From Candidatus Rhodoblastus alkanivorans (GTDB lineage: Bacteria > Pseudomonadota > Alphaproteobacteria > Rhizobiales > Beijerinckiaceae): 64,000 bases of DNA. Made by a program: the position numbers and the translations under genes. Under the pieces are notes generated by a model that saw nothing but the letters and a program-made list of their open reading frames with translations, was not told the DNA's origin and did no database searches. Numbering within the stretch: position 1 is the stretch's first letter; the number at the start of each line of letters is the position of its first letter. The stretch lies in contig NZ_JAIVFP010000001.1 in NCBI RefSeq assembly GCF_022760755.1, positions 3,576,001 through 3,640,000 of the forward strand, read 5' to 3'. Of the stretch, positions 7,516-34,623 are shown piece by piece.

Positions 7516-8310
7516 TTACCCGGACGCCGCCGCGACGATCACGCCATCGGCGAACCAGCGGACGAGAAAGCCGCCCGCCGCCTGCGCCATCTCGCCGGCG
7601 TCCTGTTTCGGACGGGCGAAAGCCAGACCCGCGCAAATGTCCCCGAACGGCGCGCCGGCCATCGCCTCGGCCAGGGCGATGTCTTCGAGCGTGTCGAGAA
7701 CGCGATAATTGACATCAAGCTCGCACCGCCACACCGCCAGCGCAGTTTCAGCCTCATCGCGCCCGCGCAGGACCGGCTCGCCCGCCTGAAACGCCTCATA
7801 TGCCGCAAGCGCGGCGGCGCAGGTCTCGATCCTGATCACGCTCGGATGGAAGCCGAAACGCAGGCCGGGCCAGTCGTCGGCGCTCGTCGCGCGGAGAATT
7901 TCGATGGCAAGCGCTGCGGCGTCCGCGGCGTCGAAACTTTTGGCCAGCGCCGCCTCCAGCGCCGCCAGCCCGCAAAGGAAGCGATCCTCGGCATAGGGCG
8001 GCGTCGCGCGCAAGAATTGCGGGAGGGAGGCGCCGACCCAGCGCGCATTGCGGAATTTCGAGGGATGCGCCCGCCAATAGGCTTCGACCATGGCCGCGAA
8101 GCCGTCGTTCCCCATCGCCTCGGCCAGGACCGGATAATCATTGCTGAGAAATTCCGCCATCCGCAGGCGAAAGCCGTCGTGATAGACGGCGAAGGTCGCG
8201 GCGATATTTTGCGCGCGGGCGGGCGGACGCAGCAGCGCGAGCAGACGCGACGACGGCGCCCCCGCCAGCACGCTGTCCTGAAACAGGGATTGCAGCTCGC
8301 CGAGCTTCAT
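7516..8310 (-). CDS. bufC: BufC-like partner protein (DUF2063 N-terminal domain)
   Basis: The 264-residue product starts at 8310; its ATG overlaps the bufB stop as ATGA, so the two are translationally coupled. The N-terminal third (LGELQSLFQDSVLAG, FAVYHDGFRLRMAEFLSNDYPVLAEAMG) matches the DUF2063 domain found beside DUF692 enzymes. In bufferin pathways this partner binds the precursor and delivers it to the iron oxidase. The C-terminal half is alpha/beta and less conserved. It is the last gene of the moaA-bufA-bufB-bufC run on this strand. Confidence 0.82.
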   Translation of the reverse strand: MKLGELQSLFQDSVLAGAPSSRLLALLRPPARAQNIAATFAVYHDGFRLRMAEFLSNDYPVLAEAMGNDGFAAMVEAYWRAHPSKFRNARWVGASLPQFLRATPPYAEDRFLCGLAALEAALAKSFDAADAAALAIEILRATSADDWPGLRFGFHPSVIRIETCAAALAAYEAFQAGEPVLRGRDEAETALAVWRCELDVNYRVLDTLEDIALAEAMAGAPFGDICAGLAFARPKQDAGEMAQAAGGFLVRWFADGVIVAAASG

Positions 8311-9143
8311 GCCGCCGCTCTCTCCCCGGCTTCGGCGAGCGCCCGCATGTGGCGCAATTCGTCGAGCAGTTCGGCAAAGGGCGGAAAAAGATCGTCGCGC
8401 TCGATCATCGCCGGGACCGGCCCGAACCGCTCCCGCACATAGGAAAACAAAGCCCAGACATCGTCGCAGACGGGGTGATCGTGGGTGTCGATCTTGTGTG
8501 TTCCGGCGTCGCTGTGGCCGGCGACATGGATCTGGGCGACGCGCTCCTTCGGCAATTTGTCGAAATAGTCGCGTGCGCGAAAACCGTGGTTGAAGGCCGA
8601 GACATAGACATTGTTGACGTCGAGCAGCAGCAGGCAATCGGCCCGCCGCGCGAGTTCGGCCAGAAAATCCGCCTCGCTCATTTCGTCGGCGGCGAAGGCG
8701 ACATAGGTCGAAGGATTTTCCAGCGCGATCCGGCGGCCAAGGAAATCCTGCACGCGCGAGGCGCGCTCCACGCAATGATCGAGCGATTCCCGCGTCAGCG
8801 GCGCCGGCAGCAGATCATGCAGGTTCAGGCCGTGAACGCCGGTCCAGGCGAGATGGTCGGACACCAGTTCCGGCTCGACCCGTTCGATCAGCCTTTTGAG
8901 GGCGCGCAGATAATCGAAGTCGAGCGGGTCGGCCGAAGCCAGCGACAGCGACACGCCATGCATGCGCATCGGATAATCGGCGCGGATACGGTCGAGCGTC
9001 GCCAGGGGCCGCCCGCCGGGAACCATGTAATTTTCGGAAATGATCTCGAACCAGTCCACCGGCTGCGGGGATTCGAGAATTTCAGGATAATAGACGTGCC
9101 GCAGGCCAAGCCCGAAACCTAGCGCCCGATCCTTCGCAATCAT
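8307..9143 (-). CDS. bufB: Multinuclear non-heme iron oxidase (DUF692, bufferin maturase BufB)
   Basis: The 278-residue protein starts at 9143 after a clear GGGAGGA site. It has the TIM-barrel DUF692 motifs that supply the iron ligands: MHGVSLSLA, SDHLAW, LENPSTY, LLDVNNVYVSAFNHG, QIHVAGH and DTHDHPV. Known MNIO enzymes oxidise cysteines in a ribosomal precursor peptide (for example to thiooxazoles in bufferins). The Cys-rich precursor is encoded directly upstream and the DUF2063 partner directly downstream. Confidence 0.9.
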   Translation of the reverse strand: MIAKDRALGFGLGLRHVYYPEILESPQPVDWFEIISENYMVPGGRPLATLDRIRADYPMRMHGVSLSLASADPLDFDYLRALKRLIERVEPELVSDHLAWTGVHGLNLHDLLPAPLTRESLDHCVERASRVQDFLGRRIALENPSTYVAFAADEMSEADFLAELARRADCLLLLDVNNVYVSAFNHGFRARDYFDKLPKERVAQIHVAGHSDAGTHKIDTHDHPVCDDVWALFSYVRERFGPVPAMIERDDLFPPFAELLDELRHMRALAEAGERAAA

Positions 9144-9205
9144 CGCGTCCTCCCGGTCGGAACTCCCCGCGCGGAAATGCGCGCGGGGAAAAGTTTCGCG
9201 CGCAA

Positions 9206-9469
9206 TCAGCCGACCGTGCCGCCGAGCTTCTTGCAGGCCGTGGCGGATTTTTCGAGCAGGAAGCCCTGGCCCTTGCAGGCGTTCTGGCCCTTGCAGGCGT
9301 TGCTGGCGGTCTTGCAGGCGCCCTTGCCCTTGCAGGCGTTGATTCCCATGCAATGGACCATGGCCTTCTTGGCCTGCGCCGGGGTGGAGACGGCGGCGCA
9401 GGAAACGGCGAGCGCAATGGCGGCGGCGGCGATGCTCGCGCCGGAAACGACCTTCATCTGCATAGTCAT
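9206..9469 (-). CDS. bufA: Cys-rich bufferin-like precursor (BufA)
   Basis: I chose the ATG at 9469, which has AGGGAG five bases upstream. The 87-residue product has a signal peptide (MTMQMKVV, hydrophobic core, TPAQA cleavage) and a mature part with six Cys at residues 40, 46, 52, 59, 65 and 79. Four of these sit in NACKG/GACKT-type repeats. This fits the copper-chelating bufferin class whose cysteines are modified by the DUF692 enzyme and which is then exported to the periplasm. The canonical EGKCG motif of other bufferins is absent, so it belongs to the NACKG-repeat subtype. Confidence 0.8.
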   Translation of the reverse strand: MTMQMKVVSGASIAAAAIALAVSCAAVSTPAQAKKAMVHCMGINACKGKGACKTASNACKGQNACKGQGFLLEKSATACKKLGGTVG

Positions 9470-13045: not shown

Positions 13046-13476
13046 TTCCAGCCGATTCTCTTTTCACGCCAGTCGTCGCCATTTGTGCCGATTTTGGCCT
13101 TTAATGACAATATGGCCTGAATTCAAGGAATGTCGGGACTCGGGACAATCGGCGGAAGGCGCGCTCTTCCCCTCGAAATTTTTAGCGCGCTCTTCCCCTC
13201 GAAATTTTTAGACGGCGCACTTCTTGTAGACAGCGCGCTTCGGCGCAGATGACTGGGGCGCGCAAATCACCGGGGCGCGACAGCCGGTGGCGGCCCGCCC
13301 TCGATGACGCATCGCAGCGACGCATCATAGCGCCCTGCGCTTGGCCGTATTGCAAGGCCTGCCTGGGGCGAGGCGATCACGAACGGGCCAAGGCCTTGGC
13401 GACGCCGAACGCCATTGGCCGGCGCGACGCGACCGCCCGTCGCCGCGCCGGCCAATCGGCCCAGCCTGATTCAGGC
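13046..13476. other. Intergenic region with a 26-bp tandem duplication
   Basis: No gene is supported here. The first 100 bases are the presumed dusA promoter zone on the minus strand. The only clear structure is the perfect 26-bp direct repeat at 13,160-13,211. A 7-bp inverted repeat at about 13,462-13,476 abuts the stop of the first short peptide gene and could be part of a weak terminator. Confidence 0.6.
13160..13211. repeat. Perfect 26-bp tandem repeat
   Basis: Two identical head-to-tail 26-bp units (13,160-13,185 and 13,186-13,211) begin CGCGCTCTTCCCC and end TTTTTAG. There are no differences between them, so the duplication is recent or maintained. Confidence 0.95.
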
Positions 13477-13758
13477 TCAGTCGTCGTCGTCGCGGCGGTG
13501 CGGGCCACGCGGAGGCCCCCAGCCACCGCCGCCGGGAGGTCCGCCGTGGGGTGGATCGCCCGGAGGGCCCCAGCTGCGCCCGCCTGAATGAGCGATCGCC
13601 TGAGAGGTCAAAGACGTCGACAACAGCATGGTGATGGCCGGTGGCGTCGCCGCCGCGAACCTTCCCAAGGTGGAAAGGAATTTCCGGCGATCGGCTTGGG
13701 CGGCTTCTCCCGCGCCAAGCCCGTCCTCGCCTGAATTGTCGTCTTGCCGATGTTCCAT
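13477..13758 (-). CDS. Short peptide 1 with Tat-like RRKFL motif and Gly/Pro-rich tail
   Basis: The ATG at 13,758 is preceded by GGAGG at seven bases; 93 residues. The first 22 residues are hydrophilic and acidic. Residues 22-28 read ADRRKFL, followed by LGRFAAATPPAITMLLST and a small-residue stretch ending QAIA, very like a twin-arginine signal. The remainder is Gly/Pro/Trp-rich and ends in four Asp. Peptide 2 shares residues 22-61 almost completely but has a different tail. The gene pair diverges from a PqqD-HprK fusion and a nucleotidyltransferase, so a precursor-peptide role is a reasonable inference. No known family is claimed. Confidence 0.7.
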   Translation of the reverse strand: MEHRQDDNSGEDGLGAGEAAQADRRKFLSTLGRFAAATPPAITMLLSTSLTSQAIAHSGGRSWGPPGDPPHGGPPGGGGWGPPRGPHRRDDDD

Positions 13759-13909
13759 GACGTCCCTCCACTCCGCGTTAGGATCCTTGCCGACTGTGCG
13801 AACCAATATCGACAGCCATCATCCGGCGCGACCACAACCGATCGCGCAGGCCCCGCGCGGCATTTCGTCCCGAAACAGCGCCAGACCCCGTCCGCCGGAA
13901 CAATATGTC

Positions 13910-14164
13910 TCAGCGGTCCGTGTCTTCAAACTTGCCGTTCGGGCTTCCGTCCGAACCGCCGTTGCCGAAGCCGTTGTTCCCTCTGCCGCCGGATTGGGCG
14001 ATTGCCTGGGATGTGAGCGTTGTCGATAACAGCAGCGTGACCGCGGGGGGCGTCACGACGGAGAATCGCCCCAGCGCGGAAAGGAACTTCCGACGATCGG
14101 CCTCAGCTTCGCCAAGCCCGAGCAGCCCGTTTTCGGCTGGCTTGTCATGATGTTCTAGTTCCAT
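13910..14164 (-). CDS. Short peptide 2, paralogue of peptide 1
   Basis: The ATG at 14,164 has GGAG upstream; 84 residues. The twin Arg is at residues 24-25, exactly as in peptide 1. ADRRKFLS, LGRF, TPPA, LLST, LTSQAIA and SGGR are shared. The tail is different: Asn/Gly-rich (RGNNGFGNGGSDG) and ends in acidic residues. The leader is conserved and the tail variable, as expected of peptide precursors or of small secreted proteins with a common targeting signal. It lies 151 bases upstream of peptide 1 on the same strand. Confidence 0.7.
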   Translation of the reverse strand: MELEHHDKPAENGLLGLGEAEADRRKFLSALGRFSVVTPPAVTLLLSTTLTSQAIAQSGGRGNNGFGNGGSDGSPNGKFEDTDR

Positions 14165-14335
14165 CGCATTTCTCCATTCGAATCCGTGATAACGATTTGC
14201 TACGCGCATTGATTTTTAAATTTAATCGCTTGGGTGATCGCCCGCATCGCAAACTGAAACTCAGCGCCATGTGCCCCCGGGGCGTTTTTTCATTTTCCGC
14301 CCTTTTCGCCACCCAACCTTGCGACTAGAATGCGC

Positions 14336-14396
14336 CCCTGATTTAATAAGTCAACGATGGAATTATTAAATCAATTAACCATGGTATTAAATAGCG
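14336..14396. promoter_or_regulatory. AT-rich divergent promoter island
   Basis: A strongly AT-rich stretch in GC-rich surroundings contains several TTAAT/ATTAA steps. It lies between the peptide genes and the divergent PqqD-HprK gene and is the likely shared control region. Confidence 0.45.
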
Positions 14397-14450
14397 TCGC
14401 GCAAAGGGAAATCTCGGGAAGTCGATGCGCGCCCACCCCCGGGAAAGCGC

Positions 14451-15629
14451 ATGGCGGAGCTGGAAAGCACGACAATGGAACGAGCTCAATGCAAAGCTCA
14501 CGAAATGCAAAACGACGACGCGCCTGAATTCGTCTTGCGCGCGGCAAAGGACGCTGTTTTCGCGCTGTTCGACGACACGCCGACGGTCTTCTGCGAATCC
14601 GCCCAGAAACTCTATGCCCTCAACCCGGTCGCGGCCCTGATCTGGTGCTGTCTGGATGAAGGCGGCGGGCGGCAGGCGGCGCAGGCGCGTCTGGTCGCGG
14701 CCGGCGTCAACCCGGCCGCCGCCGGAAGCCGGGTGGAGGACGCCGTCCGCGACTGGCTCGAACTTGGACTGCTGGACGTCGATTTCCATCCCGCGCGGGA
14801 GCCCCACGCCTGCGCTTTTTGCATCGACGGCCAATCCTTCACCGTCGAAACGTCGAGCCCGCGGCTGTCGCGCCAGATCGCCGCCCTGTTCGACCACCAT
14901 CCGTCGGAGATGGATGACGCGGAGGCGACTCGGATAAGGGTCGTCGAGATCGACGGACGGTCGCACGTCTATCTCGACGACCAGCGACTCGCCGTCTGTT
15001 CGCCAGAGGAAACGCCGCCGGCGATCAAGGGCCTCGCGACCGAGCGCATTCTCGCGCAAATGGGGCAGGACATCGCCTTCCACGCCGCCTGCCTGTCGCA
15101 GCGCGGCAGAGCGCTTCTCATCAGCGGGGAGCCGGGAGCGGGCAAGACCACGCTGACGCTGCATCTGGCGGCGAAAGGTTTCGGCTATGGCGGCGACGAT
15201 GTCGCCCTCATTTCCCCCGCCGGCTACGTCAGGGGCCTGCCCTGCGCGGCCGCGGTGAAGCCCGGCGCCTGGGACATCGTCGGCCAGATCCGGCCCGAAC
15301 TGCGCGACGCGCCCGTCTGGCGCCGGCCCGACGGCGTGAAGGTGAAATATCTCGAAGCCGGCGCGATCGACGCCAAGCCGAAGCCGGCCGGATGGATTGT
15401 CTTCCTTCGCCGGGAAGCCGGCGGCGCGGTCGAATTCAGGCGGCTCGACGCCCTGGAGGCCATGCGCCGGCTGATCGACGCCGCTTTTTCGCCTCTCGGC
15501 CGCCTGAGCCTCCCGGGCTTCGGCGCGCTGCGGCGGGTCGTGACCCGCGCGCAAATCTTCGAACTGACCTATGAGCACTCGGCCGAAGCGGCCGACGCCA
15601 TTTCAGCGATCTGTCATGACGGCGCCTGA
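14451..15629 (+). CDS. PqqD-like domain fused to HPr-kinase-like P-loop kinase
   Basis: A 392-residue two-module protein. Residues about 25-120 resemble PqqD/RiPP recognition elements ([23 protein letters not shown], then a helical segment). Residues about 190-390 resemble HPr kinase/phosphorylase-related proteins, with a clear Walker A at about 224-236 ([12 protein letters not shown]) and [11 protein letters not shown] after it. Such HprK-related proteins occur in peptide-modification clusters together with PqqD and a nucleotidyltransferase; here two of the parts are fused. The coding end overlaps the nucleotidyltransferase start by 14 bases. The substrate is likely one or both neighbouring peptides (inference). 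Confidence 0.82.
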
Positions 15630-16692
15630 CCGCAGCTTCAACGACCTGTGCCGGTGCCTGCGCGGCGCCCTGCCCGAGGCGCCGGACTGGGTCGAGATCG
15701 TCGCTGTGGCCAACAGGTCGCTGACCACGCCGTTTCTGATCGATTTCGTCCGCCGCTTCGCCGCCGAAATTCCGGAGGACGTTCGGGCCTGCGTCGAGGA
15801 AATGTTCAACCGCAACGTCCTGCGCAACGACAGGCTCGCCGCGCAATTGGGCGAGGCGGTCGCGGCGCTGAACGCGCGCGGCGTGACGCCGGTTCTGCTG
15901 AAAGGCGCGGCTTTTCTCGCCGCCGCCGACAGCAGCCGGCGCGGCCGCCGCCTGACCTGCGACCTCGACCTTCTGGTTTCCCCGCGCGAGGCCGCCACCA
16001 CGATCGAGGCCCTGTCGGCTTTGGGCTATCGCCCGTTTCGCCAGGCGCCGGACGACGCCGGCAAATGGTTCGTCGATCTCGCGCGCGAGGGCGACGTGGG
16101 CATGATCGATCTGCACACGGCGCTCCCGGGTCCGGCGTTCTATTACCGGGCAATGGGCAAGGTCCGGAACCATTGCCGCCCGGTCTGGGTCGGACAGGGC
16201 GTCGCCTTGGCGCCGTCTCCCGCCTGTCAGGCGATGATATTGATCATCCACGATCAGTTTCAGGATCACGATTATTGGATCGGCGACATCGACCTGCGCC
16301 ATCTGCTCGATCTGCGCGAACTCGCCACCGCGCCGGAGGGCCTCGACTGGCGGAGCCTGGCCTCGTTTGCCGCCGCACCGCTCGCACGCAACGCACTCGA
16401 GACCGAACTGACAGCCCTCCACGCCCTCCTTGGCGTGGACACGCCCGCGGACATGCGCAGCAGGCTTGTCCCGCGTCTTCAGCACCGGCGACGCATGCTT
16501 CAGCTCCGCTTTCCCTTTTTGCGGCCTCTGCTGATGGGGATGGCTCTGATCGACCTTTTCCATTACCGGGCGGAAATAGGATCGCGGGAAAGCGAGGCGC
16601 ATGCGCCCGCCGCGCGGCGGCTGCTGCCCCGGATCGAGACTTTGCGCTTCCTCCTCGCGCTGGCCCGGGAAAGCCGCGCCTCGAAGCTTTGA
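15616..16692 (+). CDS. Nucleotidyltransferase family protein (PF14907-like)
   Basis: 358 residues from an ATG at 15,616 that overlaps the preceding gene. The nucleotidyltransferase core is seen as [12 protein letters not shown] followed by [11 protein letters not shown], whose two Asp would bind the metal and nucleotide. [17 protein letters not shown] follows downstream. This family recurs beside PqqD/HprK-like genes and in some lasso peptide clusters. It may adenylylate or otherwise modify the peptide or its carrier. No ribosome site is obvious, which fits translational coupling. Confidence 0.8.
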
Positions 16693-16761: not shown

Positions 16762-18810
16762 CTAAAGCGTTCGAATATAGGCAATAAGGGCGGAGCGTTC
16801 CTTGTCGTCCGGGACGCCGTTCATATCCATATTCGTGCCCGGGCAAACGACAGCCGGCGCCTTGAGAAAGGCGTCCAATCGACTGGCGGTCCAGACGCCT
16901 CCCATGTGGCGCAGCGCCGGCGAATAGTCGGGATATCCTGAAAGCGATGCGACCCCCCGGCCGAAGACGCCGGCCAAATTGGGACCTATCCGATTGCCGC
17001 TCATCTCGGTCGATTGATGGCAGCCGCCGCATTTCTCCGCGAAAAGAGCTTCCGCCGTTCCGCCCGTATTCGGGACAATCGAAATCAGCGTGCTGTCATC
17101 GGTCCAGAGCAGGATGCGTCCGTCCTGGCCCTCAATCAGATCGCGGATCCGACTCCCGATATAAATGCTTTCGAAATAAAGGACATGATCGTTTCTGACA
17201 TGCGCGCGAAAGAGAGTTTTGGCCTTGAGCGAGCCGATCAGGAGATCGCCGCGCCAGCGCGGGAACAGACCCCGTTCGACGACCAGGAGGTTCGAGACCC
17301 CGATTGACGGGACCCAGGCGAACAGCGGCTCCCGATAGGCTCCCCAACTCGACTCCGGTTTGTTCAACGGCCAGGTGAAAGATCCGTAATCCGTTCCGAA
17401 CGTGGCGTAAGGCCAGCCATAATTCGCGCCGCGTATCAGCCGGTTAAGTTTGTCGCCGCCTGCCGGTCCATGTTCCGTGGACCATATGTTTCCGGCATTG
17501 TCGATAAACAGGCCTTCCGGATTCCTGTGGCCGATCGTGAACGTTTCAGCATGCCCGTCGGCGATATTGATGGCGACCGTCTTGCCGTAGGAGGTTGAGC
17601 GATCCTGCGCCAACGCATCTACGGAAGCCAAGCCGTCGAAACCGAAGTCGCCGACGCTCAAGAGAATTGTCTGCGGATCCATCATCTGCATCCGGCCGCC
17701 GCCAAAATAGCCGACGAACGGCAAGCCATGCCGCCGGTCTTTTCCGTGGACGGGCAGGCACGGCGACGTCTCATAAAGAGTTCTCCATTCGAGACCGGGC
17801 GCGCCGCGAAAAATCGCCGCCCGGTCTCCTTCCAGCATCGAGACCCGTTCGACGAAACACGCACGGCGCCAATGCCAATAGGCGTGCGAAACGAATATTC
17901 GCGCCTTGGTTCCGATTTCCTGCAAAAGAAGGCCATAAGTGCGGAAGTTTTCGGGATTGAGCCTCTCGTCTCCGCCAGATTGTTCGATTCCCGCGCGTTC
18001 CCCGGGAAAAGTCTCCCATGGACGCCCCGCCGCCGCGGCGAAAGCGTCGCCATTCAATGGAACGCGATAGGGCAGCCGCGAAAAATTTCGCCCGTTTGAC
18101 GAAAAATTCGGACCAAAGAGGAACAGATGGCCGTCTCCCGTCACGAGGAGATAGCGGTCTCCGATCCGCCCGAGCGAGCCGCCGTGGACCGCCGAACCGG
18201 GCCCCTGGTGCGTGTCCAGCCTCAAATTATAATAGGACGATCTGATGAGCGCGGAACTGTGCGCTGGCGTGAAGCGCGCGGCGAGCTCGGACGCCAGATG
18301 CGCCGTGGATTGGTTAACGACCAGAATGAACATCAGCGCGCCGAGCGCCAGCGTCCGCAAAGGCCATGACGCCGGCAGAAGGCGGGGCGCCAGGTTCAAT
18401 ATGAGGGCCAAAACAAAGACGGATAATGTCACGCCGCGTGAAAAATCATTCTTGAAAACATTGAGCCCCAGGAAGACCATGCCATAAATCGCCATGGTGG
18501 ACATGGCCGTCAGCAGCAGGCCACGCCTTCCACACTCACGGTGGAGCCAGCCGGCGACTACGGCGCTGGCCACGAATGCGCCGCACAAAGCGACGCCGGG
18601 CAGGAATTTCGATGGCGGCAAGCGCCATACCGGCACGCCGAATTTCCAATAGGGAATGAGCGCGATGACCGCGAGCGCTAAAACGTTCCAGGCCAGCAGA
18701 AAGATCCACGACGACCATCGGTTGATCCTGGCCGTCGACCACCCAAGCTGATCGAAGTGAGCAACGGCGCCACTGTTTGGAGCGCCCTCAGAAATACCGA
18801 GATCGCGCAT
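16762..18810 (-). CDS. Membrane-anchored sugar-dehydrogenase-like beta-propeller fused to cytochrome c
   Basis: A 682-residue protein with three parts. Residues about 33-170 form five transmembrane segments. Residues about 200-580 resemble the soluble PQQ-dependent aldose dehydrogenase propeller (GHRNPEGLFIDNAGNIWSTE, HGPAGGDKLNRL, GANYGWP). A C-terminal class I cytochrome c has CGGCH at about 594-598 and a possible Met ligand in CPGTNM. Electrons from sugar oxidation at the periplasmic face could pass directly to the heme. PQQ and Ca ligands cannot be verified by eye. The adjacent PqqD-like module is not evidence of PQQ synthesis. Confidence 0.75.
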   Translation of the reverse strand: MRDLGISEGAPNSGAVAHFDQLGWSTARINRWSSWIFLLAWNVLALAVIALIPYWKFGVPVWRLPPSKFLPGVALCGAFVASAVVAGWLHRECGRRGLLLTAMSTMAIYGMVFLGLNVFKNDFSRGVTLSVFVLALILNLAPRLLPASWPLRTLALGALMFILVVNQSTAHLASELAARFTPAHSSALIRSSYYNLRLDTHQGPGSAVHGGSLGRIGDRYLLVTGDGHLFLFGPNFSSNGRNFSRLPYRVPLNGDAFAAAAGRPWETFPGERAGIEQSGGDERLNPENFRTYGLLLQEIGTKARIFVSHAYWHWRRACFVERVSMLEGDRAAIFRGAPGLEWRTLYETSPCLPVHGKDRRHGLPFVGYFGGGRMQMMDPQTILLSVGDFGFDGLASVDALAQDRSTSYGKTVAINIADGHAETFTIGHRNPEGLFIDNAGNIWSTEHGPAGGDKLNRLIRGANYGWPYATFGTDYGSFTWPLNKPESSWGAYREPLFAWVPSIGVSNLLVVERGLFPRWRGDLLIGSLKAKTLFRAHVRNDHVLYFESIYIGSRIRDLIEGQDGRILLWTDDSTLISIVPNTGGTAEALFAEKCGGCHQSTEMSGNRIGPNLAGVFGRGVASLSGYPDYSPALRHMGGVWTASRLDAFLKAPAVVCPGTNMDMNGVPDDKERSALIAYIRTL

Positions 18811-19307: not shown

Positions 19308-19853
19308 GTGCAAGCGCCATTCGACACCGAGCCAACCGCCGAACTCGTCGATCAATGGCTTGAGCGGGTCCGCGGTTTCCTGAGCATCCTGACCGCGCGC
19401 AAGAAGCAGCAGTTCAATCGCCGGGTTTCCCTGGGCGATCTCCTGACCGAACGCGCGGACAACGCCGCCGCCTATGGCTTCGGCGAGGGGACGACGATGT
19501 ACGACAATGTCCTGGTCCTCGGCGACGTAGAGGTGGGGCGCGACACCTGGATCGGCCCCGGCTGCATTCTCGACGGGTCCGGCGGCGGCCTGCGGATCGG
19601 CGACTGGTGCTCGATCTCCGCCGGCGTCCAGATTTACACCCATCACACCGTCAACAGGTCGATTTCACTCGGACAATCGCCGATCGATTATGCGCCGACC
19701 CGGATCGGGAACGGCGTCTATCTCGGGCCGAACGCCATCGTCCAGATGGGCGTGACCATCGGCGACAAGGCCGTGATCGGCGCGAATTCCCTGGTCAACC
19801 GCGACATCCCGGCAGGCGCGCGGGCGTTCGGCTCGCCAGCGCGGGCCCGTTAG
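19308..19853 (+). CDS. Left-handed beta-helix (hexapeptide repeat) acyltransferase
   Basis: 181 residues from a GTG at 19,308, with AGGA about eight bases upstream. The central section is built of hexapeptide turns (VLGDVEVGRDTWIGPGCIL, LRIGDWCSISAGVQIYTH, RIGNGVYLGPNAIVQMGVTI). It ends with the PAGARAFGSPAR cap common to this class. YTHHTV supplies the probable catalytic His. Members O- or N-acetylate sugars using acetyl-CoA. Position at the edge of a polysaccharide region suggests a role in decorating the glycan or a nucleotide sugar. Confidence 0.88.
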   Translation: MQAPFDTEPTAELVDQWLERVRGFLSILTARKKQQFNRRVSLGDLLTERADNAAAYGFGEGTTMYDNVLVLGDVEVGRDTWIGPGCILDGSGGGLRIGDWCSISAGVQIYTHHTVNRSISLGQSPIDYAPTRIGNGVYLGPNAIVQMGVTIGDKAVIGANSLVNRDIPAGARAFGSPARAR

Positions 19854-19923: not shown

Positions 19924-21237
19924 TCAACGCTCCTTCATCGCATGCGCCGCCTGGTCCAGAAGGGGCTTGGTCAGATAGGACAGCACGGTGCGTTCGGGCG
20001 ATTCGATGAAGACTTCGACCGGCATGCCGGGTACGACCTTGAGGGACCCGATCTTGGCGAGCTCCTGCGCGTTGAGCTCGACCCGCGCCGTGTAATAGCT
20101 GTGGCCGCTGCGCTGATCCGTGATCAGATCCGCCGAGACGACTCCGATCTTCCCCTCGATCTCCGGCGTGGTCTTCTGGTCGAAGGCGGTGAAGCGCATT
20201 TGCACCTTCTGGCCGACATGAACCTCGTTGATGTCGCGCGGCGCGAATTTGACCTCGACCGCGAGGGCGTCGTCATCGGGCACGATGAGCATGATCTGCT
20301 GGCCCGGCTCGATCACGCCGCCGACCGTGTGGACGGCGAGCTCATGGACGCGGCCCGACTGCGGCGCCCTGATGTCGATGCGGTTGAGCTGGTCGTCCGC
20401 GGCGATCTTGCGCTCGGCGAGTTCCGACAGTTTGGAGCGCGTTTCGATCAGATCCTTGCCGACCTCGCTGCGAAGATCCTGGTCGATCTGAATGATCTGC
20501 AGCTGGGTTTCGGCGATCTTGCCTTTCGTCTGGGCGATCATGCCCGAAAGCTGGCTGCGCTCGCCTTCGAGCCGCGCGGCGTCGCGCTCCAGAGCCGTCA
20601 GCCGGGTGAGCGGAATGAGCTTCTTCGCATAGAGCGCGCGGACGCCGTCGAGTTCCTGATGGATCAGTTCGACTTCCTTCTGCTTGGCGTCGCCCTGGCC
20701 GGAATAGCCCTTGATTTCATCCTGCAGCTCGGAAGTACGCTCCTTGAGCTGGGCCTTCTGTCCGCTCCGGGACTGGCGCCGCAGGTCGAACAGCTTCCGT
20801 TCGGCGACAATGGCCCGTTCGGCTTCGGAATTCGGCTTTTTGGCGCGGTCGAGCAAGGCGGCCGGAAAGACGATGGCGTCGGAACTGTCGCGCTCCGCCT
20901 CGAGGCGCGCCTCGCGGGCGAGCAATTGGTCGAGGCTCTGCGACACCGTGGTGGCGTTGGCCAGCGTCTGGGTCGGGTCGAGCCGGACCAGGACTTCGCC
21001 GGCCTTGACCCGGTCGCCGTCGCGCACGCGCAATTCGGCGACGACGCCGCCAGTGGCGTGTTGCACTTTCTTGACGCTCGAATCCACCACGACCACGCCT
21101 TCGCCGATCACAGCGCCGGCGATGCGCGCGGTGGCGGCCCAGCCGCCGACGCCGAATGTTACGAAGCCGACAAGGATCATGCCGACCACCAGATGACGCT
21201 GAATCGAATGCAGCGCCGTTATCGTGACTCGTTCCAT
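19924..21237 (-). CDS. Type I secretion membrane-fusion (HlyD-family) adaptor
   Basis: 437 residues: one N-terminal membrane segment (HLVVGMILVGFVTFGVGGW), the lipoyl-like start (HATGGVVAELRVRDGDRVKAG), and a long coiled coil (about residues 110-280). The beta-barrel end (VEVKFAPRDINEVHVGQKVQ, VVPGMPVEVFIES) follows. It would bridge the ABC exporter encoded just upstream to an outer membrane TolC-like channel, which is not in this window. The start overlaps the exporter stop by one base (TAATG). Resembles PrsE of rhizobial glycanase/adhesin secretion. Confidence 0.9.
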   Translation of the reverse strand: MERVTITALHSIQRHLVVGMILVGFVTFGVGGWAATARIAGAVIGEGVVVVDSSVKKVQHATGGVVAELRVRDGDRVKAGEVLVRLDPTQTLANATTVSQSLDQLLAREARLEAERDSSDAIVFPAALLDRAKKPNSEAERAIVAERKLFDLRRQSRSGQKAQLKERTSELQDEIKGYSGQGDAKQKEVELIHQELDGVRALYAKKLIPLTRLTALERDAARLEGERSQLSGMIAQTKGKIAETQLQIIQIDQDLRSEVGKDLIETRSKLSELAERKIAADDQLNRIDIRAPQSGRVHELAVHTVGGVIEPGQQIMLIVPDDDALAVEVKFAPRDINEVHVGQKVQMRFTAFDQKTTPEIEGKIGVVSADLITDQRSGHSYYTARVELNAQELAKIGSLKVVPGMPVEVFIESPERTVLSYLTKPLLDQAAHAMKER

Positions 21238-23192
21238 TATCGGCCTCCCTGGCCGGAGGCGACCACCTTGAACGCGACCGGCGTCCGCAGCACCCGGTCG
21301 AGAATCTGCTGACGTGGTCCGAACGCCTGCGCGCGCCCCTCGCCGATCACCAGCACCTGGTCCACAGCCTCCAGTGCCTTGGGCCGGTGCGCGACGATGA
21401 CGACGACGCCTTCGCGCTCGCGCACCCCGGCGATCGCCTTGGTAAGGGCCTCCTCGCCTTCGGCGTCGAGGTTGGACGACGGCTCGTCGAGCACCACCAG
21501 GAAGGGTTCGCCATAAAGGGCGCGGGCCAAGCCGATCCTTTGGCGCTGCCCGGCCGAAAGGGCGAGTCCGCCTTCGCCGATCTTTGTCCCATAGCCCTCG
21601 GGAAAGGACAGAATCAGTTCATGAGCCCCCGCGGCCTGCGCCGCTTTCAGAACGTCCGCCGCCTTGGCGCGCGGATCGAAGCGGGAAATGTTCTTGGCTA
21701 TGGTGCCGTCGAACAGCGCCACATCCTGCGGCAGATAGCCGATATGCCTGCCGAGCGCCTCGGAAGACCATTGATCGATCGCCGCATTGTCGAGCTTGAC
21801 CCTGCCGCGAACGCGCGGCCAGACCCCGACCAGCGCCCGCGCCAGCGTCGATTTGCCCGCGCCGCTCGGCCCGATGATCCCGACTGCCTGGCCGGCGCGC
21901 AATTCGAAGGAAATGTCGGTGAGGATCTGGCGTTCGGAATCCGGCGCCGCCACGCAAAGCCCTTGCACGACGAGCGCCTCCTTCGGCGCCGGCAGCGCCA
22001 GGGGCTCCTCCTCCGCGGGCAGCAGCTTGAGCAACTGGTTGAGCCGCCGGCCCGATTGCCGCGCCGACACGAAACCCTTCCAGTTGGCAATGGCGACATC
22101 GACCGGCGCCAGCGCCCGCGCGGTCAGGATCGATCCGGCGATGATGATGCCGGCGGTCGATTCCTGGTAGATCACCAGATAGGCGCCGACCGCGAGGACC
22201 ACGGACTGCAACATCGACCGGAACACTTTCGAGACGCCGCCAAGCCCGCTGGAAACGTCGCTCGCGCGTTCATGCGCCGCGAGATATTTGCTGTTGACCT
22301 CCTGCCAGCGCTGCGCCGCCTGGCTCCGCATGCCCATGGCGTGGAGGACTTCGGCGTTGCGCCGGCCCTCCGCCGCGAGCGCCGTGCGCGACACCGCAAG
22401 GCGCGCGAAGGCCTTCGCCGGCCCCTGCGTCTTGAACTCGGTGAGAATGGTGATTGCGATCAGGATCACGGCGCCGATCACGGCGGTGACCCCGATCCAG
22501 AAATGAAACAGGAAGCAGACGCCGATATAGACCGGCATCCAGGGCAGGTCGAACAAAGCCGTCGGCCCGCTCCCCGACAGGAAGGCGCGCAGCTGGTCGA
22601 GGTCGCGCAAAGGCTGCATCCCGTCGCCGTCGGCGCGGGTCTTCAACGGCATCCGGACCAGGGAGTCGAACACCCGCGCGCCGATCCGCTCGTCGAAATG
22701 GCGGCCGACGCGCACGCCGATGCGGTTGCGCACGAGATCCAGCCCGCCCTGAAACAGATAGAGCACGATCGCCAGAACGAGCAGCGCCAGCAGGGTCGGC
22801 ACGCTGCGGCTCGGCAGCACCCGATCATAGACCTGAAGCATGAAGAACGAGCCGGTGAGCATCAATAAATTGCTCAGGCCGCTGAAGGCGGCGAGGCCCC
22901 AGAAAATCCGCCGGCACGAGGCGAGAAAAGCCAGAACCTCGGAGCTGGATTCCGCGAATTCGTCCACCGGCCGGGCGTGATCGGAAAAGATCCGGTGCCG
23001 CAGAGTCTCTACCGGGCGGGTCGTGGCTGCAGCCAGGCCGGCGGCATGCGCGCGGACGCGCTCGGCCGCCAGGCCGAGCCGCGCCCGCAACGGCAGGCGC
23101 GAGGCCTGCGCATTGCCGTCACGGTCAGGCGGAGAGAGTTCCCTCCGCCTTCCGAATTGAGAGATTTCTCTTCTCCGTCCGAATTCAGTCAA
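21237..23192 (-). CDS. Type I secretion ABC permease/ATPase (PrsD-like)
   Basis: 651 residues without a C39-type peptidase domain, matching the PrsD/AprD class. An unusual hydrophilic N-terminal extension of about 90 residues contains a doubled FGRRRE motif. The membrane domain follows (CRRIFWGLAAFSGLSNLLML, PTLLALLVLAIVLYLFQ). The nucleotide-binding domain has Walker A GPSGAGKS at about 440, signature LSAGQRQRIGL at about 542 and Walker B LVVLDEPSS at about 564. The beta-helix RTX-like protein encoded immediately upstream is the obvious substrate. Confidence 0.92.
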   Translation of the reverse strand: MTEFGRRREISQFGRRRELSPPDRDGNAQASRLPLRARLGLAAERVRAHAAGLAAATTRPVETLRHRIFSDHARPVDEFAESSSEVLAFLASCRRIFWGLAAFSGLSNLLMLTGSFFMLQVYDRVLPSRSVPTLLALLVLAIVLYLFQGGLDLVRNRIGVRVGRHFDERIGARVFDSLVRMPLKTRADGDGMQPLRDLDQLRAFLSGSGPTALFDLPWMPVYIGVCFLFHFWIGVTAVIGAVILIAITILTEFKTQGPAKAFARLAVSRTALAAEGRRNAEVLHAMGMRSQAAQRWQEVNSKYLAAHERASDVSSGLGGVSKVFRSMLQSVVLAVGAYLVIYQESTAGIIIAGSILTARALAPVDVAIANWKGFVSARQSGRRLNQLLKLLPAEEEPLALPAPKEALVVQGLCVAAPDSERQILTDISFELRAGQAVGIIGPSGAGKSTLARALVGVWPRVRGRVKLDNAAIDQWSSEALGRHIGYLPQDVALFDGTIAKNISRFDPRAKAADVLKAAQAAGAHELILSFPEGYGTKIGEGGLALSAGQRQRIGLARALYGEPFLVVLDEPSSNLDAEGEEALTKAIAGVREREGVVVIVAHRPKALEAVDQVLVIGEGRAQAFGPRQQILDRVLRTPVAFKVVASGQGGR

Positions 23193-23277: not shown

Positions 23278-25314
23278 TTATGCGAAGTGGAAGTCATGAG
23301 AATTGAGCGAGCTCAGGCTGGTGTTCTTCAGCGTGAGCGTGTCGTGCCCCGATGCGATGACCGTGTCGTGACCGACCTGCTGGGCGTGGGAGAGCACGCT
23401 GGCGAAACTGTCAAACTCGCTGGAGCTGAACTGAATCGTATCGTGCCCGCGGTACCCGGCGCGGAAATCCCTGATCGTATCGTGGCCGAAATTGGCGGCG
23501 AACACGAAAGTGTCGGGATGGCCGTTGCCGACGAAATAATCGTCGCCCGGCGTGCCCGTCAGCGTGTTGGCGCCATTCGTGCCAAGGATCGCCTCGCCCG
23601 AAGTCTTGGCCACGACCTGGCCGGAGCTGTTGACCTCCTGTGCGGTATAGGTGTGGACAACGGTCGAATCGGGCGTGGTCACGAAATTCCAATTCCCGCT
23701 CGAATCGGCCGTCACGGCGCCGACCTTGACGCCGGCGTCATAGACATTGACATGACTGTTGGCGTCGGCCGTGCCCTTGAGCGAAGCGAGGCCGCTCCAG
23801 TTCTCGTGGAGATTGGAGAAGGCGATCCCGCCCGAGGTCGAAGTCGAACCGGAACTCGAAGTCGAGCTTGAGCTGGAAGCCGAGGTCGAACCCGAGGCCG
23901 ACGTTGTGCTCGAACTCGAGGTCGTGCCGATCACCGGATCGAGAGCGACGGAATGCGCGCTGACATTGCCGGCGGCGTCGGTCGCCGTCGCGTCAAGGGC
24001 GTGGTTCCCGCTCGACAAGGCGGACGTCGTAACGCTCCAGGCGCCGCTCGAATTTGTCGTGCCCGTGCCGACCGCCGTCGTCCCGTCATAGACGGTGATG
24101 GTGCTGTTCGCCTCGGCCGTTCCCGAAATCTGCACATGGTTGGTGTTGACGACGGCGTCGCTCGTCTCCACCGGAGCAGACGGCGCGATGGTGTCCACGG
24201 TGACGTTGGTCACGCTGGACGCGGCGCTTGTCGCGCCCGAAACCGTGTCGGTCGCGGTCAGGGCGTGATGGCCGTCGCTCAGCGTCGAAGTGGCATAGCT
24301 CCAGGCGCCGCTCGAATTGGCCGTCGCCGTCCCGAGCTTGGTCGAGCCGTCGAAGACCGTGATCGTGCTGTTGGCCGCAGCCGTTCCCTTCAGCGTCAGA
24401 TGGTTGGCGTTGGTGATCCCGTCGCCGGAGACGCCGCTGTCGGGCGACCAGGACGCAATCGCGGGCGCGGCCGGCGGCGTGGATGCAGAGGACGAGGTGG
24501 AGGTCGAGGTAGAGGTAGAGGTAGAGGTAGAGGTAGAGGTCGACGATGTCGACTGGTTCGCCGACGTGTTCAGCGTCGCGATGAGGGTCGCGCCATCATT
24601 GACGTTCCCGGTATAGGTGGGATTGGTGCCGTTGAAATCCGTAACGCCGTAGGCGCCCGATTGCATGTGATTGTTCGTGAACGACACGCCGCCGATCGAC
24701 CCGCCGCTGAACTGGCTGTCGTCGTAAACGGTAAAGCCGCCGCCAGAGAGGAGATTGTTGTCCACGCTGATATTGGAGATCGGCCCGAAATAATTGTCGA
24801 TCATGATCGCCGACGTCTGGCCGTACGAATTGATGACGGTGTTATGGCTGATCGTCACATTGGACACGCCGCCGTCGATCTGGATGCCGTCGTAATGCGG
24901 CGAGCCGGACGCGAGCAGGCTGTGGATATAGTTGTTCTGGATCGTCGAAGAGCCGGTGACGTTGATGCCGTTTTCGACGTTGTAGATGTTGTTGTTGATG
25001 AACGTGCCCTGGCCATTGATGCCGTTAGAGCCGTCGTTGCCGCTGCCGACGCCGTTGATCTCGCAATTTTCGATCGTCGTTCCCGTTACGCCGGAAGCGA
25101 TCTGGACCACGCTGAAGCTTGCCGCGGTGATCTTACAGTCGATCAGCGTGACATTCGGGGCGTTGATATAGACGGTACCGGAAATGTTGAGCCCGGAGAT
25201 CACGGCGCCAGCCTGCGTCACGACGAGACTGCCCGATGGCGTCAGCGTTACACCCGCTGGGACACCAGTATTCGTGGCGTCAGGCCATCCGGTGTTTGTA
25301 GTCGATGTAGCCAA
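23278..25314 (-). CDS. Type I secreted right-handed beta-helix protein with Ig-like modules and RTX-like C terminus
   Basis: 678 residues, no Sec signal peptide. Residues 1-255 form a right-handed beta-helix of Asn-rich turns (NNNIYNVENGINVTG, GSPHYDGIQIDGG). A Ser-Thr repeat linker at about 256-285 follows, then two Ig-like modules (each with GTAxANSxIxVxDG...SGAW) and a second Ser-rich linker. A third Ig-like unit precedes a C-terminal GTNGANTLTGTPGDDYFVGN segment with Phe/Asp-rich ends (HDTIRDF), as in RTX export signals. The adjacent exporter probably secretes it in a Ca-dependent way. Possible roles are polysaccharide lyase, epimerase or adhesin; the catalytic type is undetermined. Confidence 0.82.
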   Translation of the reverse strand: MATSTTNTGWPDATNTGVPAGVTLTPSGSLVVTQAGAVISGLNISGTVYINAPNVTLIDCKITAASFSVVQIASGVTGTTIENCEINGVGSGNDGSNGINGQGTFINNNIYNVENGINVTGSSTIQNNYIHSLLASGSPHYDGIQIDGGVSNVTISHNTVINSYGQTSAIMIDNYFGPISNISVDNNLLSGGGFTVYDDSQFSGGSIGGVSFTNNHMQSGAYGVTDFNGTNPTYTGNVNDGATLIATLNTSANQSTSSTSTSTSTSTSTSTSTSSSASTPPAAPAIASWSPDSGVSGDGITNANHLTLKGTAAANSTITVFDGSTKLGTATANSSGAWSYATSTLSDGHHALTATDTVSGATSAASSVTNVTVDTIAPSAPVETSDAVVNTNHVQISGTAEANSTITVYDGTTAVGTGTTNSSGAWSVTTSALSSGNHALDATATDAAGNVSAHSVALDPVIGTTSSSSTTSASGSTSASSSSSTSSSGSTSTSGGIAFSNLHENWSGLASLKGTADANSHVNVYDAGVKVGAVTADSSGNWNFVTTPDSTVVHTYTAQEVNSSGQVVAKTSGEAILGTNGANTLTGTPGDDYFVGNGHPDTFVFAANFGHDTIRDFRAGYRGHDTIQFSSSEFDSFASVLSHAQQVGHDTVIASGHDTLTLKNTSLSSLNSHDFHFA
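24494..24549. repeat. Hexanucleotide microsatellite coding for Ser-Thr
   Basis: About eight consecutive GAGGTA/GAGGTC units lie inside the beta-helix secreted protein gene. On the coding strand they give alternating Ser-Thr codons. Because the unit is six bases, slippage would change linker length without a frameshift. Confidence 0.85.
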
Positions 25315-26397
25315 GGTATCTCTCCTGATGGTTTTGTCAGCGTATAACGCGATTTGAGCGACTCAGTTATTCTCATGAACCAAGACGACAATCGGCATAG
25401 CTGCCGGTCGTAAAAGAATTTGCCGAAGAGGCATTTTTGTGGCGAGATGATCGTCCAAAAAAGGTCATTTCATCACGCCAAGCGCTCGTTCGTTCGTCCC
25501 GTACGGCCACCATTCCATTGATATACTTACAACTTTTTAAAACTTAGAAACGGATCAACGATCTGGCGCCATTGCATTTTTTTGTGACACCGTCACCATT
25601 CAATAGCCAAGGTAACGCTTTCAATCTGCATGAACGCCCCCTTCTACCTCTCCCGCGCTCATGGGGCAATCTGTTTGTCTCCACCTTGAATAATCATAGG
25701 TTGCCATCCGCTTTTTTATTTTGTTTCTATTTTTATATTTTTCAATTTTCCGTGATCGTGGTTTATTATATTATCATATTGTTTTTGCTATTGATTCATG
25801 GCGGCGACCGTTCGATCCCTGCCAAGGCCAACCATTTAAAACTCGATCAAGTATAATTCGCCAATGCTATTAACAAGCGCTGACGCCACGCTGAAAATGG
25901 CCGCCATTGACCTCCATTGTATGAATCTCATGGTTAACGATCGATTAAAATTCGATTAGAATTGTCGTGCGCAGCGACGCGGCTCCGGCACCGTGAAGCG
26001 CCTTCGTGGACCGCCCGGTTTCGACGGGACTGGGATCGTCGCGGATACGGCATAACCCTTGTTTATGCTAATATATTCGGTATTATGTATCAATATTTAC
26101 CTAAAACCTGGTCGCAGGCATTATTCTATACATTAATACCCTGAGCCGGACGAAAGGCGTTCTTCGCTTCCCGATTGCTTCGACCGGCTGCTGGCTTCGG
26201 TGCGACGAATCGGAGCCTGTGTTTGATCGATTCGCAGCGATTCGCGCGCCGCGAACATCGCAGCCGATGCGCATCTGGTTCGTCACGTCTCGCTACGCCG
26301 GCGATTTCGCCAGCCGACATGGTCGGGCCATATTCAAATGGGAAAGGTCGCCGGGACGGTGATCTTTCGACGAACGAAACGAACAGGGAGCAAGGCC
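25315..26397. other. 1.1-kb intergenic region, no supported gene
   Basis: The first 200 bases should hold the minus-strand promoter of the secreted beta-helix gene. The centre (about 25,690-25,860) is distinctly AT-rich, with runs of T and TTATA. A 94-codon open frame there is hydrophobic only because of base composition and lacks a ribosome site. The last 300 bases are GC-rich and feature-poor and lead into the oxygenase gene. Nothing else was recognised. Confidence 0.6.
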
Positions 26398-27483
26398 ATG
26401 GCGCAACCATCCCTGAAGATCGGCGATCCAGCGCCGTGGTTCGCCGCGGCGGCAGGAGCCGATCGCGGCCCGGTAGCCTTTGACGAATTGGCCGGCCGCT
26501 TCATCCTGCTGTTTTTCTTCAGCTCAGCCGGCGCGCCCGACATCGCGGCAGCGCTCTCGTCCCTCGATTCGAAGGCCGAGATTTTCGATGGCAGGCGTTC
26601 CCAATTCGTCGGCGTCAGCAACGATCCGAATGATTTCGCGTCGGGGCGCCTGCCTGGGCGCGCCGGCCAGGTCTATTTTCTGGACGCGAGCGCCGCCGCC
26701 GCCGCGCGCTACGGGATCGCCGCGACGCCGGCGAGCCCGTTTCGACCCATTGCCTTCCTGTTGAGCCCCGCGCTGCAAATCCTGAATATCATTCCATTCG
26801 AGCGCGCCGACGATTTCGTTCGGCGATCGACCCTGCTGCTTGGCGCGGCCCTGGCCGAACCGGCCGCGGAGCAGAACGCTCCCATCCTCGTGGTTCCCCA
26901 TGTCTTCGACCGGGACCTCTGTCGCCGCCTGATCGAACTCTATGACGCGAACGGCGGGCGCGAAATCGGCTTGATCGAAAACAAGGGACAGATCGTCGAA
27001 CGAACCGACACGGCGTACCGGAAACGTCTCGACTATTACGTCGCGGATGACGGCGCGCTGCAAAGATGCAGGGAATCGCTCGAACGCCGGCTGCTGCCGC
27101 TCGTCTATCGCGCCTTCCAGTTTCCCACGACGCGCATCGAGCGCTATCTCGTCGGCTGCTACGACGCGACCACGGGCGGATATTTCGGGGCGCATCGCGA
27201 CAATACCGCGCCGTCGGTCGCACACCGCCGTTTCGCCCTTACCTTGCCTCTCAATGACGAATATGAAGGCGGTCGGCTTCGCTTTCCCGAATACGGCGCC
27301 CGCGAATTCACTGCGGCGCCGGGCGACGCCATCGTGTTTTCCTGCGCGCTCCTGCATGAAGTCACGCCCGTGACCGCCGGCCGGCGCTATGCCTTCATCT
27401 CATTCTTCTATGACGAGCTGGGGCAAAGAATGCGCGACGCCTACGCAAAGGACGCCGCGGCCAAGCAAACGGTCAAGGGCTAG
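26398..27483 (+). CDS. Peroxiredoxin-like domain fused to 2-oxoglutarate/Fe(II) oxygenase (prolyl 4-hydroxylase type)
   Basis: 361 residues from an ATG at 26,398 with AGGGAG upstream. Residues 1-160 resemble the AhpC/TSA fold (LKIGDPAPWF, GRFILLFFFSSAG), but the usual catalytic Cys is not seen, so it may be structural. Residues about 170-350 are a prolyl-4-hydroxylase-like domain. GGYFGAHRDN supplies the HxD iron ligands, LLHEVTPV the distal His, and RRYAFISFF the 2-oxoglutarate-binding Arg. It is convergent with a beta-helix gene. The target may be a secreted protein or glycan in this region (inference). Confidence 0.83.
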   Translation: MAQPSLKIGDPAPWFAAAAGADRGPVAFDELAGRFILLFFFSSAGAPDIAAALSSLDSKAEIFDGRRSQFVGVSNDPNDFASGRLPGRAGQVYFLDASAAAAARYGIAATPASPFRPIAFLLSPALQILNIIPFERADDFVRRSTLLLGAALAEPAAEQNAPILVVPHVFDRDLCRRLIELYDANGGREIGLIENKGQIVERTDTAYRKRLDYYVADDGALQRCRESLERRLLPLVYRAFQFPTTRIERYLVGCYDATTGGYFGAHRDNTAPSVAHRRFALTLPLNDEYEGGRLRFPEYGAREFTAAPGDAIVFSCALLHEVTPVTAGRRYAFISFFYDELGQRMRDAYAKDAAAKQTVKG

Positions 27484-29417: not shown

Positions 29418-29470
29418 CAGCCGCTCCCGAATCGCCTTGGGCTGCGCCGGCGCAGCCCAACCGGCGCCTA

Positions 29471-29535
29471 TTATTTAATTCGACATTAATTACGCTCGTT
29501 GGTATTAAATGCAAGGTGATTTTAAATATCGTGGT
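29471..29535. promoter_or_regulatory. AT-rich divergent promoter island
   Basis: Repeated TTTAATT, CATTAATTA and GTATTAAAT steps lie between the divergent glycosyltransferase and FkbM genes. This is probably the shared control region. Confidence 0.45.
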
Positions 29536-29545
29536 TTCGGAGTCC

Positions 29546-34613: not shown

Positions 34614-34623
34614 AGCCGTCAAT

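Follow-up and report, generated by a model that had tools for sequence, protein, structure and literature searches.

A conserved leader peptide family co-occurs with a fused recognition element–kinase and a PF14907 transferase: a candidate phosphopeptide system in Alphaproteobacteria

The stretch of DNA analysed here, called the window throughout, is 64,000 nucleotides of Candidatus Rhodoblastus alkanivorans (contig NZ_JAIVFP010000001.1, positions 3,576,001 to 3,640,000). It carries two small peptide genes that point away from a pair of enzyme genes; one enzyme is a PqqD-like recognition element (RRE) of the kind found with ribosomally synthesized and post-translationally modified peptides (RiPPs), fused to an HprK/PEPCK-type kinase, and the other is a nucleotidyltransferase-like protein of family PF14907. 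Our central finding is that the conserved leader family of these peptides and the fused RRE-kinase/PF14907 pair co-occur in genomes of soil and water bacteria, often as neighbours. Judging from the sequences, the genes probably encode a RiPP-like phosphopeptide system, in which the RRE-kinase would modify the peptide, the transferase would elaborate the modification and the leader would double as a signal for twin-arginine translocation (Tat).

Co-occurrence of the leader family with the enzymes

How far does this arrangement extend beyond the window? In a sample of 199 genomes of the family, the 84-residue peptide has relatives in 7 and the window kinase in 10; the kinase-positive genomes include all seven peptide-positive ones, which hold the seven best kinase scores, and peptide and kinase are adjacent in every one of them. 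Peptide, kinase and transferase follow in that order on a single strand in genomes G046, G004 and G081, whereas the peptide is divergent in the Rhodoblastus loci, so the association survives rearrangement. At the level of the order, the leader was found in 10 of 397 genomes, all of them among the 18 of 394 that are kinase-positive (E <= 1e-40) and holding the ten best scores, a ranking that is partly circular, presence being less so, as loci of all these genomes except G233 and G459, 8 of the 10, went into the kinase profile. The corresponding Fisher probabilities, 2e-15 by genome and 1.8e-6 by genus, ignore phylogeny. In a sample of the class, the kinase is present in 9 of 367 genomes, and these nine include 6 of the 10 peptide-positive class genomes; G954 and G941 proved to have kinases in a separate check and are missing from the class-level result, presumably because they were not drawn.

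Taken by genome, the kinase is present in 22 of the 24 peptide-positive genomes (in G941 as fragments only), among them all four of genus g78. Additionally, 29 plasmid records were found with the window kinase as query, and all eight loci examined, from six genera, have peptide and transferase in the same cluster as a kinase of 26–34% identity; Rhizobium tropici CIAT 899 is one of these. On pSymB of Sinorhizobium meliloti Ak57, a 'serine kinase' (LZK74_19180), a 'nucleotidyltransferase family protein' (LZK74_19185) and a 'hypothetical protein' (LZK74_19190), which is the peptide, are annotated in succession. Co-occurrence between genomes of leader and kinase (7 of 7 in the family, 10 of 10 in the order) led us to reject a local coincidence. 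A preliminary description of the window had proposed a peptide-modification system, and this proposal is supported by that co-occurrence together with the conserved leader, the RRE-type domain and the conserved residues of both enzymes described below.

Leader, enzymes and a proposed mechanism

The two peptides were described as sharing residues 22–61, with twin arginines at 24–25 and tails unrelated to each other, and all of this is borne out, with 32 identities at the 40 shared positions. Between the two paralogues, the nonsynonymous divergence of this segment (dN) is 0.13 and the synonymous divergence (dS) 1.8, a ratio of about 0.07, which indicates strong purifying selection. The leader of peptide 1 spans residues 1 to about 56 (DRRKFL...TPPAITMLLSTSLTSQAIA), and that of peptide 2 is the same; the predicted cores are H57–D93, which is rich in Gly, Pro, Trp and His, and Q57–R84, of a recurring GNNGxGNGxxDGxP type. 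Across 106 distinct leaders, GR/K-F, TPP, LLL and AxA hardly change, while the tails vary: they range from 5 to 133 residues, contain Cys in 27 of the 106, and some are His-rich or, in Leisingera, strongly basic. The tails are nonetheless not arbitrary, for 42 of the 106, among them GNNGFGNGGSDGSPNGK of the 84-residue peptide, are of a recurring GNNGxGN-like type. Could this motif be a piece of larger proteins? We rejected that possibility, since in 18 genomes a GNNGxGNG pattern at the DNA level gave 14 matches, of which 12 are peptide tails and 2 lie in other proteins (the reversed control gave 2 matches). The remark that both peptides end acidic was loose: the termini are HRRDDDD and FEDTDR, and 58 of the 106 relatives have a C-terminal Arg, some of these sequences being cut at contig ends. 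Two Leisingera peptides (L202:5234-5449, L221:5416-5628) join the family leader to a Lys/Arg-rich tail near plasmid polysaccharide export genes, and in genome G653 three paralogues stand in tandem (L094:7927-8838), with Cys-rich tails behind a related leader, the kinase of this genome lying on a different contig.

On the divergent side, the fusion of a PqqD-like with an HprK-like domain was correctly recognized. The RRE domain occupies roughly residues 27–112 and the kinase domain 106–392. The window protein scores 22.5 bits against PF05402, just below the cut-off of 23.4, and that family is matched at E<=0.01 by 16 of 20 aligned kinases, the window protein included. In a profile search of the PDB, the RRE domain finds TbiB1 (E 1.9e-7), TfuB1 and, weakly, LppB, and its model superposes on TbiB1 with a TM score of 0.86 and a root-mean-square deviation of 1.4 Å over 83 columns, the winged helix-turn-helix fold of RREs. 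The best NCBIfam match of the kinase domain is TIGR04352 (HprK-related kinase A; E 3.7e-20), at 72.2 bits, below that family's curated cut-off of 200, and the protein therefore falls outside it. Its list of similar folds is topped by PEPCK, not HprK; these two have a common fold, so this ranking does not separate them. Residues H211, K232 and D249 are invariant and D250 nearly so among 20 sequences, and by analogy they may be equated with the His-Lys-Asp-Asp motif reported for lasso peptide kinases in the available part of a review (PMC9266682).

The kinase and transferase genes overlap by 14 nt, and the assignment of the second to PF14907 also stands (Table 1). All 24 aligned partner proteins match PF14907, and their invariant residues include K96, G97, R112, D116, D118 and H212. 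Between Rhodoblastus loci, dN/dS is 0.42–0.55 for the kinase and 0.28–0.30 for the transferase, that is, both are selected as proteins, the kinase loosely. By sequence, the transferase has no relative of solved structure at E<=1; its model has weak structural likenesses to antibiotic nucleotidyltransferases and to FKRP, a ribitol-phosphate transferase (E 1.7e-3 and worse). In the maturation of pseudomycoidin, a transferase is needed for placing a hexose on phosphate, a contribution by a host enzyme not being excluded (reviews PMC9266682 and PMC8498205, in their available parts). This precedent makes nucleotidylation of the peptides, as first proposed, one option among others. The system also offers a way to learn what PF14907 enzymes do.

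How might these parts work together? The RRE domain would bind the leader block around GRFxxxTPPAxTLLL and so tether the peptide to the fused kinase domain, which would then phosphorylate it in the cytoplasm, most likely at Ser58 of both window peptides. The transferase would attach a nucleotidyl or sugar-phosphate group to the Ser phosphate. The leader would also serve as a Tat signal by virtue of RRxFL, a moderately hydrophobic stretch and AxA, and the modified peptide would leave through the housekeeping Tat machinery. Signal peptidase I would cut after A56, releasing Gly-rich cores of 28 and 37 residues that would act outside the cell, perhaps within the exopolysaccharide matrix. Of these steps we put most weight on RRE docking, followed in falling order by Ser58 phosphorylation, elaboration by PF14907, Tat export and cleavage at A56. 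A more specific picture, of a widespread, uncharacterised alphaproteobacterial RiPP family whose leader is both RRE dock and Tat signal, is possible, if doubtful: a kinase with a built-in RRE would phosphorylate a single Ser beside the signal-peptidase site, PF14907 would convert the phosphate to a sugar- or nucleotide-phosphodiester, this one enzyme pair would serve several scattered precursors, and their Gly-rich tails would be phosphate-linked into the exopolysaccharide matrix.

We favour Ser58 as the acceptor because a Ser follows AxA in 100 of the 106 leaders, because it is kept where other Ser and Thr residues vary, and by analogy with the linear polyphosphorylated peptides (LPPs; Popov et al. 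2026, PMC13381572), in which, according to the available sections of that paper, the kinase phosphorylates Ser3 of a linear core. In both window peptides this residue lies two positions past Ala-Ile-Ala. The kinase-adjacent peptide of locus L091 no longer has the Ser/Thr residues of alignment columns 23–28 and retains the Ser after AxA; in peptides of R. tropici and Novosphingobium it is the Thr of TPP that has gone, with that Ser kept. The leader has the RRxFL motif and AxA site of a Tat substrate, and TatC is present in the genome; the maximal 15-residue Kyte-Doolittle values, 1.5 for peptide 1 and 1.2 for peptide 2, are moderately hydrophobic when read as they stand, with no control set.

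Counter-evidence, rival explanations and known relatives

Not all observations favour the phosphopeptide proposal, and those that weigh against it are collected here. Genomes G688 and G696 are peptide-positive and have only short or weak kinase matches. Kinase loci with no recognized peptide nearby occur in G435, G653, G161, G078, G074 and at the first of two loci in G806, and, on short contigs, in G207, G471 and G582; in G233 and G459 peptides lie elsewhere in the genome and none beside the kinase. A scan of named genomes with the pattern [LC]GRF[SA][AV][VA]TPP gave 66 peptide loci, 23 with a kinase within the fetched flanks and 43, mostly from Bradyrhizobium and Sinorhizobium, with none, some of these 43 flanks ending at a contig edge. 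Within the leader, the RR found in 106 of 106 sequences, like the counts of the aromatic residue, holds by construction, because only sequences matching RRx[FY][LMIV] entered the set. Other well conserved candidate acceptors are the Thr of TPP (105 of 106) and S23, T24 and S28 (94, 91 and 93 of 106), and in an RRxA[LM] branch the Ser after AxA is absent, by eye, from 4 of 5 members (L126 and L128–L130), so the proposed acceptor site is not universal. The residue preceding RR is mostly Asp and a Pro-Pro lies inside the hydrophobic stretch, both of which are atypical for Tat signals. Finally, the [Y/W]xxP motif recognized by lasso and LPP RREs was not found in the leader.

Wide occurrence of the peptide family without the enzymes had been named as a refutation: by locus, 43 of 66 have no kinase nearby, but by genome, 22 of 24 have one; the look for kinases elsewhere in the genome left out Microvirga, Tardiphaga and other single named loci. 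S. meliloti 4H41, S. saheli and S. psoraleae each have one peptide copy adjoining the kinase and others standing apart, and such scattering fits one enzyme pair serving several precursors. Eight further genomes of the order are kinase-positive: G446, G451, G456, G392 and G223 have a nearby divergent peptide with a related leader, RRxA[LM]...PAM, and G435, G207 and G471 have no related small open reading frame (ORF) nearby, the last two on contigs of about 4 kb. In the class search, the kinase-positive genomes G582, G806 and G885 gave no leader match; a closer look revealed a divergent peptide at one of two loci in G806, a weak one truncated by the end of the locus in G885, and none in G582.

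The many solitary copies would suit a different explanation, in which the peptides are no more than small surface proteins exported by Tat or Sec in the ordinary way and the enzymes act on another substrate, such as exopolysaccharide precursors, the two being neighbours for regulatory reasons. Polysaccharide-type genes do lie near several loci (window 28–45 kb, L070, L131, L132, and the Leisingera and Parasedimentitalea plasmids). Against it, the kinase has a leader-binding type of domain by both profile and fold, the co-occurrence persists in G233 and G459, whose peptide and kinase genes are unlinked, and leader conservation, we infer, exceeds what an ordinary signal peptide needs; we consider this explanation quite improbable.

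Alternatively, the same kinase and transferase could act on another residue (a leader Ser or Thr, the tail or a C-terminal Ser), or mainly transfer nucleotidyl or sugar-phosphate groups instead of leaving a lasting phosphate. The conserved leader Ser and Thr residues, the branch without Ser after AxA, the weak structural likenesses of the transferase and the C-terminal Ser used by lasso kinases (PMC9266682, available part) would all be accommodated in this way. We judge it unlikely, as the Ser after AxA varies less than the other positions in divergent peptides next to a kinase, and as the LPP acceptor Ser is close to the leader cut (PMC13381572, available sections). Three members of the deviant branch, L128:8554-8820, L129:7902-8216 and L130:8536-8781, are kinase-adjacent, have RRxA[LM]...AP[AG]MLVL leaders and all end in GHSGC; here, to go by the sequences, the acceptor is perhaps C-terminal.

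The phosphopeptide proposal is best seen beside the LPPs, and the statements on LPPs that follow rest on the available sections of PMC13381572. Both systems combine an RRE, an HprK-like kinase and a nucleoside triphosphate (NTP) transferase, LppN being compared as an 'NTP transferase' and not through PF14907, and two-thirds of LPP clusters are without a lasso cyclase. Both have one to three precursors with a conserved N-terminus and a highly variable C-terminus, and an acceptor Ser near the leader cut, demonstrated in LPPs and predicted here; signal-peptidase-type processing (again predicted here), a frequent polysaccharide context and a patchy distribution are further likenesses. The LPP transferase had no activity in the host used. 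The differences are equally plain. LPPs are described as restricted to Bacillota and the window family belongs to Alphaproteobacteria; the RRE is discrete in LPPs and fused to the kinase here; the LPP leader motif, YxxPxVLxHQxIxFETxxS, is replaced by a different block, RRxFLxxxGRFxxxTPPAxTLLLS, which is of Tat type, ends in AxA and has no aromatic residue three positions ahead of either Pro. LPP clusters encode a dedicated peptidase like signal peptidase I, whereas a scan of 16 window proteins, those read as genes at 12.0–25.3 kb among them, matched no peptidase family. LPP clusters also encode an MsbA-like exporter; ATP-binding cassette (ABC) and HlyD genes lie near the cluster in the Rhodoblastus loci and were not seen in the three g5 loci. 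Many precursor copies here, unlike those of LPPs, lie away from the enzymes. The window system would function in the manner of an LPP system and lacks three of the features that define membership: a discrete RRE, the leader motif and the cluster peptidase. The preliminary judgement that it is unlike known classes was too strong, because LPPs rely on enzymes of these kinds and have no cyclase; it is a conserved, uncharacterised system and probably a variant of phosphate-tagged RiPPs, not a categorically new kind.

In lasso peptide clusters with a kinase, the RRE and the kinase are on separate genes. Available parts of PMC9266682 and PMC8498205 describe an HprK-homologous kinase with His-Lys-Asp-Asp and an RRE, as here, for paeninodin, pseudomycoidin and the SyanK cluster, and a nucleotidyltransferase-like partner, also as here, for pseudomycoidin; the kinase lasso peptides differ in their C-terminal Ser acceptor and their leader. 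Could the product be cyclised like a lasso by unlinked enzymes? The RRE domain is nearest lasso RREs among solved structures, and kinase and transferase also occur in lasso clusters (PMC9266682). In the genome, which is 98% complete, the lasso B2 leader protease PF13471 has 0 matches at E<=0.001, the cyclase itself not having been searched for, and the predicted cores open with His-Ser-Gly or Gln-Ser-Gly, with no acidic residue at a common fixed place. We rejected a lasso product on the absence of PF13471 and regard it as highly improbable; the earlier remark on a missing lasso cyclase is supported as far as this protease goes. The literature collection searched held no paper uniting HprK, PqqD and a nucleotidyltransferase, none on TIGR04352, HprK-related kinases, HPr-rel-A or PF14907, and none on RRE-Finder with a kinase and a nucleotidyltransferase; papers on HPr kinase, RiPPs and PqqD all concern lasso peptides by their titles.

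If true, the phosphopeptide proposal would have wider consequences. Phosphate-tagged linear RiPPs would extend from Bacillota to Alphaproteobacteria, including S. meliloti pSymB, R. tropici and Bradyrhizobium, and gene pairs for RRE-HprK and PF14907 proteins, now annotated as hypothetical, would gain a substrate. S. meliloti, R. tropici and Bradyrhizobium are genetically tractable symbionts. Additionally, a native RiPP leader doubling as a Tat signal would, to our knowledge, be new: a full-text search on twin-arginine signals and RiPPs found two papers, neither of which, judged by title and abstract opening, concerns a native Tat leader.

Genomic setting of the cluster

The features of the cluster and its neighbourhood are collected in Table 1. 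A GGAG-type, Shine-Dalgarno-like stretch lies immediately upstream of the ATG of each peptide, and downstream of peptide 1 a unit of about 26 bp, GCGCGCTCTTCCCCTCGAAATTTTTA, occurs twice head to tail by eye (13159-13212).

Table 1. Coordinates of the cluster and neighbouring features in the window
Feature	Coordinates	Strand	Remarks
Precursor peptide 1, 93 aa	13477-13758	-	Longest in-frame ORF 109 aa
Precursor peptide 2, 84 aa	13910-14164	-	Longest ORF 99 aa
Divergent intergenic region, peptide 2/kinase gene	14165-14450		
RRE (PqqD-like)-HprK/PEPCK-type kinase fusion, 392 aa	14451-15629	+	Start uncertain: 14451 or 14475
PF14907 nucleotidyltransferase-like protein, 358 aa	15616-16692	+	Pfam match E 2.1e-27
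Glucose/sorbosone dehydrogenase-cytochrome c fusion	16762-18810	-	
Hexapeptide acetyltransferase	19308-19853	+	
HlyD-like and ABC genes, type I secretion kind	19924-23192	-	

All four Rhodoblastus loci have ABC/HlyD genes close to the cluster and three have the acetyltransferase there; the three g5 loci showed neither. In R. acidophilus, the transferase gene of either locus (L023, L024) has a relative of the acetyltransferase as its neighbour. The acetyltransferase is a possible accessory gene, and the HlyD/ABC genes are a possible but doubtful exporter. The dehydrogenase fusion is probably outside the system because the three other loci of Rhodoblastus did not show it at the matching place; in the window it separates the transferase gene from the acetyltransferase gene, two genes that adjoin each other at either locus of R. 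acidophilus. Among 110 neighbour proteins from 20 loci, tallied for the best 25 of 156 matched families (rarer ones could be missed), the commonest are H-NS (4) and Bac_transf, ABC_tran, Cupin_2 and YkuD (3 each); RmlD accounts for 2 of the 110, and two of the ABC/HlyD sets belong to Rhodoblastus. No peptidase of the signal-peptidase kind appears among these best families, and a conserved dedicated exporter or peptidase was rejected, none being recurrent among them. The proposed Tat and signal-peptidase route would explain why no such gene recurs.

The polysaccharide context of the loci is recurrent, not universal. By ORF reading, a polysaccharide locus lies about 12 kb from the window cluster (28368-45567), with glycosyltransferases, a Wzx-like flippase, a polymerase-like protein, WecB/WecC/WecG-like proteins and aminotransferases. 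In L070, L131 and L132 the adjacent genes read as rml or sugar-transferase type. Annotated polysaccharide genes lie near the roseobacter plasmid loci of Leisingera and Parasedimentitalea, one of which has a parallel beta-helix gene, as does the window; no gene within 10 kb of the S. meliloti pSymB locus is annotated for polysaccharide synthesis.

Three further observations concern other parts of the window. Beside the type I secretion pair, two proteins encoded on the minus strand (23278-25314 and 27523-28752) have similar N-terminal repeats; one of them has a weak beta-helix match, the other Big domains. At 26338-27483 (+), an AhpC/TSA-like domain is fused to a 2-oxoglutarate-Fe(II) oxygenase domain. 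Lastly, a metal-type RiPP cluster, which we take to be bufferin-like, lies at 7516-9457 (-) and encodes an MNIO enzyme of the MbnB/TglH/ChrH family (8310-9143, E 1.9e-107), a DUF2063 partner (7519-8310) and a Cys-containing, secreted-type peptide of 83 residues with no Pfam match (9209-9457).

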